Shown here piece by piece: positions 2,643 through 5,053 of a DNA stretch of 5,053 nt (the first letter of the stretch is position 1; the number at the start of each line of letters is the position of its first letter). Source of the DNA: Aquimarina sp. GTDB lineage: Bacteria > Bacteroidota > Bacteroidia > Flavobacteriales > Flavobacteriaceae. Below the pieces are notes generated by a model. It searched no databases. It saw only the letters and a program-made list of their open reading frames with translations, and was not told the DNA's origin. The position numbers and the translations under genes were made by a program. Where the stretch lies: positions 1 through 5,053 of the forward strand of contig WTKB01000244.1 of the NCBI GenBank assembly GCA_011524575.1, in the 5' to 3' direction.

Positions 2643-2859
2643 AAATCTCTTTAAATTTTCCTATTATCTGTTCATTTAGGGGTATTTATACCTCCATTAA
2701 TCTTCGAAATTGCTCTAAAATAAATTGGTAGTATTTAAAATACACACCTATAATTTATACAGAAAATAATTATTTAAATTAATATTAACGAAATCATTAT
2801 ATCACCAACAGTGATATTACGAATATTGTGCTTTATTTATTAAATTATAAAATAATTTT
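2643..2859. other. AT-rich spacer between inverted repeat copies A and B
   Basis: These 217 bases contain no plausible gene. The visible structures are a 12-base GGTATTTATACC palindrome at 2681-2692 and a clear 19-bp dyad at 2799-2817. The segment may be the original upstream region of the aminotransferase gene, now separated from it by repeat copy B. No convincing -33/-7 pair was found. Confidence 0.6.
2799..2817. promoter_or_regulatory. Operator-like dyad ATATCAC-N5-GTGATAT
   Basis: A perfect 7-bp inverted repeat is separated by CAACA. Neither strand has a T-run after it, so it is not an intrinsic terminator; its size and spacing fit a dimeric regulator site. It is the most distinctive element in the spacer and lies about 220 bases upstream of the aminotransferase start codon, with repeat B in between. 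Confidence 0.4.
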
Positions 2860-3014
2860 AGAGCTTGTTTAAACTGAATTACAGAAAGTAGTGCCTTTAA
2901 ACAAGCTCTAAATACAAACTGTAATTCAAAAGTTTACCGTTAGTGGGTTACTTTTAAATGATGTGCATATCAAGGATATGTAAGTCACTTTTAAGTGATC
3001 CAAGTTCTTATAAT
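2860..3014. repeat. Palindromic MITE-like repeat, copy B (inverted relative to A, rearranged and truncated)
   Basis: Read on the minus strand, 2909-3010 follows copy A closely, with one mismatch over about 60 bases in one half and several in the other; the centre is CATATCAAGGATATG at 2966-2980. The left portion, 2860-2909, is a complete 50-bp mini-unit bounded by AGAGCTTGTTTAAA and TTTAAACAAGCTCT, which joins the outer 30-odd bases of one arm directly to the other terminus. On the gene side similarity fades after about 3010 and no terminal repeat is left. A second internal palindrome, TCACTTTTAAGTGA, lies at 2985-2998. The repeat ends about 22-25 bases before the aminotransferase start codon, so it makes up most of that gene's proximal upstream region. 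Confidence 0.8.
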
Positions 3015-3035: not shown

Positions 3036-4226
3036 ATGGCTCAAAACAGCAAAATTCACCCCGCTCTCACAGGTTGTTTAAATTCTACTGCACCTGTAGA
3101 AAAAAGAATTAATTTCAGTCCTGGACCTACAAGTTTACCAAAAGAAGTTGAAAAGGAAATTGCGGAAAGCTTTCATAAACTGGGTTTCACTTCACTTGCA
3201 ATATCTCACCGATCTCCTCAATTTGAAGAAATTCTTGAAGATACAATTACCTCTATAAGAGAAGTGCTTAATGTCCCTGATACTTATGAAGTATTATTTA
3301 CCCATGGTGGTGGACACGCTCAGTTTGCTGCAGTTCCTTTAAACCTATGTGTGAATCCATCCGATATTGCAACTTATATAGTAAATGGAACTTGGTCACA
3401 AAAAGGTAGAGATGAAGCTATGAAATATTGTGATGTACATACCATTGAAGCAAAAGACGAAAATGGTAAGTTCACTGTTTTTCCTAAACTAAAAGAAGAA
3501 GATATTCACCCTGAAAGTAAATACGTTTACTTATGTTCGAATGAAACTGTAAATGGTATAGAATTACACCGATTACCAAAGCTGCCTGAAAATCGAAAAC
3601 ATATCCCTCTTATAGTTGATGCCAGTTCTGATGCTTGTACAAAACCCATAGACTGGGAAGGTGCAAATATTGGTGTATATTTTGCATGTGCTTCTAAAAA
3701 TATTGGCCATCCTGGAGTAACCATGACTATAGTACGTAAAGATTTATTTAGAGGAAAAGAACCTTCTAAGTTATGTCCTGTAGTAATGAGTTACAAAGGA
3801 GATGGTAGACCAGAAAAACCGCTAAATACACCTGCAACTTTTAATATCGAAGTTATTGGTATGACCATGAAATGGCTTTTGAGAAATGGAGGAATTGACG
3901 CATGTGAAAAACGTTCTATTAATAAAGCAAGAGCTATATATGATGTTATTGAGGCTTCAAATGGATTTTACGCAACCCCTATTAAGGATAAAAACTTACG
4001 TAGTAGAATGAATGTTCCATTTAATGTAATGGGCGGAGATGAACAAATGACTAATAAATTCCTTATTGAAAGTTGGGAAAAAGGTTTTGTAGGTTTTGCC
4101 ACATTAACTCCATTTGGGACAAGAGAATACCTTAGAGCAAGTTTATATAATGGGGTTACTGAAGAAGAGGCTCAAATTTTAGCAAATTTTATGACTAATT
4201 TTATAAAACAAAACTCAAAAAAATAA
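3036..4226 (+). CDS. SerC-like PLP-dependent aminotransferase (class V) with an altered substrate pocket
   Basis: From ATG 3036 the product has 396 residues and is recognisably related to phosphoserine aminotransferase along its length: INFSPGPTSLP (25-35), SHRSPQF (57-63), THGGGHAQFAAVPLNL (89-104), SNET (168-171), VDASSD with the pyridine-contacting Asp D195, and SKNIG with the PLP lysine K221. The terminal arginine of the family, E. coli R335, is R367 in LRASLYNGV. The substrate loop that reads GHR(S/V)VGG in the E. coli and human enzymes is replaced by PFGTREY, so E. coli H328 becomes F360 and R329 becomes G361; E. coli R77 is H94. The N-terminus is about 20 residues longer than in E. coli SerC. 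An ATG at 2958 would add 26 residues encoded inside repeat B and is rejected; the chosen start has an A-rich leader (TTCAATAAAA). The stop codon abuts the transporter start. It could be an ordinary SerC, but the pocket change favours another acidic substrate. Confidence 0.85.
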   Translation: MAQNSKIHPALTGCLNSTAPVEKRINFSPGPTSLPKEVEKEIAESFHKLGFTSLAISHRSPQFEEILEDTITSIREVLNVPDTYEVLFTHGGGHAQFAAVPLNLCVNPSDIATYIVNGTWSQKGRDEAMKYCDVHTIEAKDENGKFTVFPKLKEEDIHPESKYVYLCSNETVNGIELHRLPKLPENRKHIPLIVDASSDACTKPIDWEGANIGVYFACASKNIGHPGVTMTIVRKDLFRGKEPSKLCPVVMSYKGDGRPEKPLNTPATFNIEVIGMTMKWLLRNGGIDACEKRSINKARAIYDVIEASNGFYATPIKDKNLRSRMNVPFNVMGGDEQMTNKFLIESWEKGFVGFATLTPFGTREYLRASLYNGVTEEEAQILANFMTNFIKQNSKK

Positions 4227-4964
4227 ATGGATCATTTATTGTTTGTAATTCCTATATTAGTATTTGCTGGTATTGTTAGAGGGTATAGTGGCTTTGGCTT
4301 TACAGCAATAGCTGTTGTAGGTATGAATATGGTTTTTAAGCCCCAAGATAGTGTAATTATTATGCTGGCTCTAGACCTTATATGTAGTATCGGAATTTGG
4401 AAATCTGCAATAAAAGATGCAGAATATAGTGTGCTTAAAAAACTATTATTAGGATCAATTATAGGTATTCCTATCGGTCATTTGTGTTTACTATTTATTC
4501 CTGCAGTAGTTTTAAAATTTTTAATTTGTGTACTACTACTACTATTATGTATTCTTTTATTTAAAGAATATAGATTTATAAAATCAGAGAAAAATAGTGC
4601 CATTATTGGTTGTGGGATCACCTCAGGAATTTGTACCTCAAGTGCATCTGTTGGAGGCCCTATTATTGTGTACTATATGCTAACAAGTAAGTTATCTACA
4701 TCCATACAACGATCTACTATGATTCTGTATTTCGTCATTAGTGAATTTATAGCTTTAGGATCACTTGTTGCACGTGGAAATATAGAAATCTCAATAATAA
4801 AAACAATTGGAATTGTACTTTTACCTACTTTAATAGCGGTACGTTATGGGCAAAAATTATTTCTTAAAAAGCCACCAAAATCTCTCAAAAGTTTTGCATT
4901 ACCTGTTCTTTTAGTGGTATCTATTCTAGGAATAATTAAAACATCCTATGATTTATTTTTATAG
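4227..4964 (+). CDS. TauE/SafE-family (sulfite exporter-like) membrane transporter
   Basis: The 245-residue product is almost entirely hydrophobic, with about eight membrane segments (roughly residues 3-35, 42-60, 71-92, 95-113, 124-150, 163-182, 187-206 and 222-241). It carries the two paired signatures of the TauE/SafE (formerly DUF81) family: GIVRGYSGFGFTAIAV (15-30) in the first half, and GITSGICTSSASVGGPIIVY (130-149) in the second, which reflects the family's internal duplication. Known members export sulfite, sulfoacetate or related organic anions from the cytoplasm, but most are uncharacterised and the substrate here is not shown by sequence. The length is typical and there is no signal peptide beyond the first membrane segment. 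The ATG directly follows the TAA of the aminotransferase (TAAATG), so the two must be co-transcribed and probably translationally coupled. This coupling suggests that the transporter handles a product or by-product of the aminotransferase pathway. Confidence 0.88.
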   Translation: MDHLLFVIPILVFAGIVRGYSGFGFTAIAVVGMNMVFKPQDSVIIMLALDLICSIGIWKSAIKDAEYSVLKKLLLGSIIGIPIGHLCLLFIPAVVLKFLICVLLLLLCILLFKEYRFIKSEKNSAIIGCGITSGICTSSASVGGPIIVYYMLTSKLSTSIQRSTMILYFVISEFIALGSLVARGNIEISIIKTIGIVLLPTLIAVRYGQKLFLKKPPKSLKSFALPVLLVVSILGIIKTSYDLFL

Positions 4965-4981
4965 AAAAAATTAAACTATTC

Positions 4982-5053
4982 AGAGCTTGTTTAAACTAAA
5001 TACAAACTGTAATCCAAAATTTTAAGAACTTGGATCACTTTAAAAAGATTTAC
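4982..5053. repeat. Palindromic MITE-like repeat, copy C (cut by the right edge)
   Basis: It starts 17 bases after the transporter stop codon with AGAGCTTGTTTAAA, the same terminal repeat as copies A and B. The next 11 bases (CTAAATACAAA) match the right-end subterminal sequence of copy A, while the following CTGTAATCCAAAATTTTAAG and onward match the left arm of copy A almost exactly to the window edge. TCA at 4980-4982 fits a TNA-type target. The other end lies outside the window, so completeness and target duplication cannot be judged. Confidence 0.78.

Follow-up and report, generated by a model that had tools for sequence, protein, structure and literature searches.

The locus studied here raises the question of what a gene resembling serC is doing directly against a gene for a TauE/SafE-family transporter in a marine flavobacterium. 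The window, that is, the whole stretch of DNA analysed (5,053 nucleotides), corresponds to contig C346 in a draft assembly of Aquimarina sp. (2.09 Mb, about 89% complete). Its minus strand encodes an AsnC/Lrp-type regulator and an M14 peptidase; the gene of an HTH regulator lies on the plus strand, followed by the gene pair. The first member of the pair (3036..4226, plus strand) encodes a SerC-like class V aminotransferase of 396 amino acids, with its ATG at 3036 and its stop codon within the range; a longer ATG frame from 2958 is also available, and the start at 3036 is favoured because it fits the conserved N-terminus of the relatives (HPAL..GSL). The second member (4227..4964, plus strand) encodes a TauE/SafE-family transporter of 245 amino acids. 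The TAA of the former (4224-4226) directly meets the ATG of the latter, so that both ORFs and the TAAATG junction are as originally described, except that the genes are not fused in translation, being separate ORFs that abut.

The SerC-like protein scored 120.9 bits with Aminotran_5 (Pfam) and 320.6 bits with PRK05355 (NCBIfam), above the cut-off of 253, and its best solved-structure matches are PSAT; its structure model, of moderate confidence (mean pLDDT 75.9, residues 357-362 below 50), is likewise consistent with a PSAT fold. Fold, PLP lysine and the equivalents of H41/R42, W102 and R335 are shared with SerC/PSAT1 (class V; human 8a5v/3e77, E. coli 1bjn), W120 of the window protein being aligned within the class V aminotransferase core. 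Window residues T171, D195, K221 (codon 3696..3698, plus strand, by alignment) and R367 correspond to E. coli T153, D174, K198 and R335, and the PLP site and the terminal arginine are intact, as originally described. Among the relatives, H41, R42, W102, T153, D174, K198 and R335 (E. coli numbering) are invariant in all rows reaching the site, with the PLP lysine found in 41/41 clade rows and 43/43 canonical rows.

The differences are concentrated in the substrate loop. Residues 356-367 read TLTPFGTREYLR, and codons 355-367 (4098..4136, plus strand, by alignment) cover A355, the remodelled loop TLTPFGTREYL and R367. L357 and T358 occupy the positions of E. coli H328 and R329. The loss of H328, on which the original prediction was built, is therefore real and extends to R329, but it belongs to the whole clade (40/40 rows reaching the site) and not to the window copy alone: the H328 position carries L in 39 clade rows and P in one, and the R329 position T in 40, one of the 41 rows being cut short. 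Canonical rows, in contrast, present H328 in 42/43 and R or K at 329 in 42/43, with one gap each. Of the two residues thought to be added by the loop, R363 is private to the window copy, all 39 other clade rows with this position having G, whereas E364 is not: among 40 clade rows, position 364 shows D (24 rows), K (8), E (7) or S (1). Position 355 is R in 39/40 clade rows reaching the site, A in the window copy and K in most canonical rows. A three-residue loop insertion and the changes G195C, Q197S, P202H, P242A and Y247E are also fixed in the clade and set it apart from SerC/PSAT1.

Phosphate in human PSAT is described as being held by His44, Arg45, His335 and Arg336 and the carboxylate by Arg342, with a sulfate ion occupying the same place as phosphate (PMC10031235). 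The window protein keeps the first two of these phosphate residues as H58 and R59 and has L357 and T358 for the others; the clade thus retains two of four phosphate ligands plus the carboxylate arginine. As judged from the alignment, this half-lost phosphate site would favour a singly charged sulfonate. The window copy is itself divergent, changed at 23 of the 193 sites conserved in the other clade rows, the next being L029 with 11, and these changes cluster at 249-263 (codons 3780..3824, plus strand: G249V, T254K, N256D, N261K, L262P, W263L) and at 354-363. They may reflect drift after transfer or a change of substrate, two options that present evidence does not distinguish.

The same genome contains a second serC, on contig C51, whose product is only 33% identical to the SerC-like protein and carries NGHRSVGGYRAS (GHRSVGG), the canonical loop that the original prediction had proposed to look for; the window gene is thus not the sole serC of its genome. 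This canonical SerC scored 462.9 bits with PRK05355, and 153 bases after its gene lies a serA-type frame with phosphoglycerate dehydrogenase as its best NCBIfam match (304.6 bits, under the model's cut-off). Duplication of the genome's own serC as the origin of the window gene was ruled out by the 33% identity and the different clade. With E. coli SerC as query, 30 of the 34 genomes carrying a clade member yielded a separate intact canonical SerC, and one more, G116 (a MAG), yielded a broken copy. Exceptions are G099, G104 and G108, all Rhodobacterales, where the same query at 1e-20 returned no second SerC, only the clade member.

In the tree of 83 rows the SerC-like protein falls outside canonical SerC, as the original prediction had implied, and the 40 clade rows are split from all others by a branch of length 1.31 with 100/100 support. 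Fifty loci came from the alignment scan: 39 (L007-L045) belong to the clade, and the other 11 (L046-L056) served as canonical rows; the plasmid locus L006 brings the clade to 40, and L045, cut by its own contig end, was left out of the tree. A first locus scan with the single protein gave no related loci, and the scan used here is biased to close kin because it relied on the peptide patterns CSNETVNG and FACASKNI. The clade spans marine Gammaproteobacteria, Rhodobacterales, Desulfobacterota and Burkholderiales, with relatives at 62-70% identity in Psychromonas, Vibrio, Marinomonas, Leucothrix and others. By path length the nearest rows to the window copy are two from Psychromonas (L007, L008); its placement inside the clade appears loose, and these sequences do not fix a donor. 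One locus titled Cytophagales (L043) sits in the Burkholderiales group of the tree, carries a Burkholderiales-type operon and is probably misbinned. Public databases probably misannotate the clade, since those members for which a source name was shown are all called phosphoserine transaminase or aminotransferase and PRK05355 accepts the window protein.

Gene neighbourhoods were compared with profiles built from the loci and run on the 40 clade loci (6.7-25 kb), which are related by descent and not independent, and on 20 canonical serC loci taken from the same set of genomes (14-20 kb each, from 31 separate SerC places). A sulfonate link was counted as TauE, a strong HpsN/O/P homologue or taurine-type transport/Xsc. 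By this count, tallied by eye, 34/40 clade loci have sulfonate-linked neighbours: 15 with TauE, 15 with DHPS-dehydrogenase homologues and 4 other. When the SDRs of five Desulfobacterota loci are not taken as HpsO, L027 and L033 drop and the total becomes 32/40. The six loci without a link are L007, L008, L016, L018, L022 and L028, the first two being the window's nearest rows. The 20 canonical loci showed no sulfonate-linked neighbours apart from weak matches. A sulfonate role for the non-canonical SerC, as first proposed, is thus well supported by clade and neighbourhood together.

The TauE profile identified 14 clade loci and no canonical one; L031 (by Pfam) makes 15, and an 18-bit match in L044 was left out (15/40 against 0/20, Fisher's test 7.6e-4, ignoring shared descent). 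TauA was found in 18 clade loci (8 at at least 496 bits, 2 near 190, 8 at 54-60), TauC in 18, DctM in 12, HpsN in 10 and HpsP in 9, in each case against no canonical locus. The HpsO-like SDR was found in 19 clade and 5 canonical loci, 14 of the clade matches reaching at least 421 bits and the rest, with all the controls, 71-87. TauE is present in 13/17 gammaproteobacterial, 1/5 Rhodobacterales, 1/9 Desulfobacterota and 0/9 Burkholderiales-type loci, and Hps homologues in 9/9 Burkholderiales-type and 6/9 Desulfobacterota loci; the TauE and Hps loci do not overlap, a pattern confounded by ancestry. TauE adjoins the SerC-like gene in 13 loci: ten have it upstream, and L012, L021 and L031 share the downstream arrangement of the window. 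In five Burkholderiales-type loci (L036, L037, L038, L041, L043) the SerC-like gene lies between hpsO-like and hpsP-like genes.

Other neighbours were seen in smaller groups. In the Rhodobacterales L006, L021 and L026 the SerC-like gene follows a FAD/GcvT-type demethylase, with ETF, folD and purU also annotated in L006. In the Desulfobacterota L024 and L031 it stands by MttB-type methyltransferase genes, accompanied in L031 by a corrinoid protein and a MtaA-like protein. The demethylation genes of these five loci hint at N-methylated forms from which the methyls are removed first. A DegT/DnrJ-family aminotransferase gene lies directly 3' of the SerC-like gene in L025, L027, L030 and L044 (Desulfofustis).

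The partner enzymes were identified with different degrees of certainty. HpsN of the clade loci scored 788 bits to 8v35, a solved sulfopropanediol dehydrogenase. For the HpsP-like protein the scores to 8wwd were 300 and 322 bits; that entry is filed as a zinc alcohol dehydrogenase and, going by the neighbouring entries 8wwe and 8wwf, would be HpsP. The HpsO identity of the SDR is less certain, as HpsO 8wwf is hardly closer to it than gluconate 5-dehydrogenase 6le3 (273 against 267 bits in L041; 267 against 263 in L030, of the Desulfobacterota), and the best match of the L041 protein is 9pvq (354 bits), which has a generic name only. HpsN- and HpsP-type enzymes and the HpsO-like SDR are shared by the relatives' loci with the DHPS cluster hpsNOP; the cluster of C. 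pinatubonensis, given as hpsRNOUPsuyAB (PMC11382572), lists no aminotransferase, and the window is without any hps gene.

SafE and IsfE are TauE/SafE-family exporters of organic sulfonates. The assignment of the window transporter to this family (PF01925) stood, with 93.2 bits to TauE (Pfam) against a cut-off of 32.6. Within the general family it belongs to a narrow subfamily of 57 homologues at E<=1e-30, 13 of which, its own included, lie on contigs matching in size one with a SerC-like gene. Its identity is 47-56% with the 13 gammaproteobacterial TauE partners and drops to 26-31% with those of L021 and L031. The window pair has no importer, regulator or dehydrogenase beside it as far as the contig reaches, which is 89 bases after TauE. 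In the whole genome, at about 89% completeness, there was no match to DctM or to the SuyB family (PF20629); the best Xsc match has 24% identity and an acetolactate-synthase-like length, and the best HpsN match (35% identity) is probably HisD. NMT1 gave two weak matches, at 23.8 and 21.0 bits against a cut-off of 20.5. In taurine regulons TauE has been described as exporting sulfite (PMC5320631). As no desulfonating enzyme was found, an organic product is the likelier cargo here, and its export in place of sulfite is somewhat favoured. The genome has a second TauE-family gene on contig C119 (L123, 3744-6973). It is accompanied by an ArsR-type regulator scoring above its cut-off, a Blh/hydrolase-rhodanese-like protein scoring below its own and two membrane proteins, YeeE-like by eye.

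Cysteinolate is 2-amino-3-hydroxypropane-1-sulfonate, which can be described as taurine with an added hydroxymethyl group or as DHPS with an amino group in place of the C2 hydroxyl. The reading preferred here, held tentatively and at slightly below even chances, is that the pair is a two-gene organosulfonate unit in which a SerC-derived aminotransferase deaminates a small sulfonated amine, most likely cysteinolate, and TauE exports the product. That the substrate is some sulfonated amine is, on the sequence evidence, probable; that it is cysteinolate in particular is a candidate assignment with a little less than an even chance. Cysteinolate is preferred because one compound would explain both the taurine-type importers and the DHPS enzymes beside the same gene. 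The aminotransferase would remove the amino group of cysteinolate to give 2-oxo-3-hydroxypropane-1-sulfonate, the nitrogen presumably passing to 2-oxoglutarate or pyruvate, and the TauE/SafE protein would export the sulfonated product. H58 and R59 (human His44, Arg45) and R367 (Arg342) would hold the singly charged sulfonate and the co-substrate carboxylate, and the missing His335/Arg336 equivalents would work against a phosphate with two charges. Other lineages would channel the deaminated product into DHPS/sulfolactate breakdown rather than export it. Cysteinolic acid is reported as widespread in marine microalgae (PMC8703288), and PMC11131964 reports it together with the expected ketone from diatoms and coccolithophores that produce DHPS. 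HpsO and HpsP are reported in the same paper to oxidise C3, giving sulfolactaldehyde, so that their intermediate may be other than the ketone; an older proposal was of C2 dehydrogenases (PMC11382572). Further points against the cysteinolate reading are the six loci without a sulfonate link, the three Rhodobacterales genomes with no second SerC at 1e-20, the taurine-type gene set of L020 and the lack, in the window's own genome, of detected importers of the kinds seen in relatives' loci.

Three other readings were weighed against this one. A second transaminase of phosphoserine or phosphohydroxythreonine, its loop change being harmless, would suit the PSAT fold, the solved-structure matches and the PRK05355 score, and the failure to reach the TIGR01364 cut-off of 443.6 (318 bits) is weak evidence against it, as the genome's own canonical SerC also misses (437.9). 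It is nevertheless highly improbable given that both loop phosphate ligands are absent throughout the clade, that 30/34 genomes hold a separate canonical SerC and that TauE, TauA, TauC, DctM, HpsN and HpsP neighbours occur in 0/20 canonical loci. Cysteate (or homocysteate), near the choice of the original prediction, would be converted to sulfopyruvate, which would then leave by export or undergo reduction by ComC/SlcC and cleavage by SuyAB. It resembles phosphoserine, and the retained carboxylate arginine (R367) suits it as well as it suits a co-substrate, a point against cysteinolate. ComC-like genes are present in 4/40 clade loci (0 canonical), SuyB-like in 5 (0 canonical) and SlcC in 5 (1 canonical), and the Ruegeria pomeroyi aminotransferase joining sulfopyruvate and cysteate is stated as unknown in PMC11382572. 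However, genes of the ComC/SlcC type are far rarer than TauE or HpsN/O/P, and cysteate is a dianion, for which taurine-type importers would not be expected. In our judgement the importers together with the DHPS-dehydrogenase genes fit cysteinolate better than cysteate/sulfopyruvate, and the cysteate reading is considered unlikely.

An aminotransferase of the taurine or N-methyltaurine family, replacing Tpa, would produce sulfoacetaldehyde for reduction or desulfonation and export, and is given the same low standing as cysteate. Consistent with it are the strong TauA-like genes in 8/40 loci, the TRAP genes, the MocR regulators (13/40 loci against 2 canonical ones, these at 113 and 168 bits), the demethylation genes in five loci and a Vibrio-type SDR, whose family occurs in five loci, with 298 bits to sulfoacetaldehyde reductase 6ixj, its best match being an unnamed dehydrogenase, 2nwq (318). 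Against it, Xsc was identified in only 1/40 loci, L020 (909 to TIGR03457, cut-off 676), where Xsc and a class III aminotransferase form a taurine-type set beside the SerC-like gene and that aminotransferase could itself serve taurine. Class III aminotransferase genes occur in 9/40 clade and no canonical loci, and the HpsN/HpsP loci are left unexplained by taurine. Taurine was retained as an alternative substrate but not preferred.

The presence of such a unit in an Aquimarina-like flavobacterium is an exception. In the window's phylum sample the SerC-like gene was found in 1/395 genomes, its own, and in 0/394 others at E<=1e-70; in a set of 91 relatives only its own genome matched at 1e-60. 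The original prediction had asked whether serC-like/tauE pairs recur across flavobacteria; they do recur, in 15/40 relatives' loci, but not as a trait of flavobacteria, the pair being mainly found in marine Gammaproteobacteria. The pair is flanked on each side by a high-copy genomic repeat, with a copy upstream at 2850..3014, related copies at 2480-2660, and one downstream at 4977..5053, truncated by the contig end; 86 matches to the repeat are listed in the genome (not all candidates scored), 43 of them to a unit of about 100 bases. Matches to the M14 gene were found in 10/10 other same-genus genomes. The relative L121 shares the gene order HTH, M14, AsnC, and its 9 kb contain neither a SerC-like nor a TauE frame. 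From the repeat matches, the M14 match and the L121 order, the contig belongs to the genome, and bin contamination was ruled out on the same grounds. Acquisition of the pair by gene transfer is likely, as only this genome in the phylum sample has the gene although the neighbouring genes are native, and we infer that the flavobacterium received it from a marine proteobacterium.

Cysteinolic acid can reportedly exceed DMSP in some phytoplankton (PMC8703288). Within the open-licence literature searched, no paper was seen to assign a bacterial gene to cysteinolate deamination. A wider and more doubtful proposal is that the clade is the missing cysteinolate aminotransferase of the ocean sulfonate cycle, feeding DHPS breakdown in some lineages and forming a portable export cassette with TauE in others, the Aquimarina-like copy (R355 lost, R363 gained) having begun to shift to a further substrate. 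The loop signature TLTPFGVG(D/E/K)Y separates the clade genes from SerC annotations. If the reading is right, a flavobacterium would here have gained a small gene pair for harvesting nitrogen, and a conserved clade filed as phosphoserine transaminase would be an entry point for amino-sulfonates.
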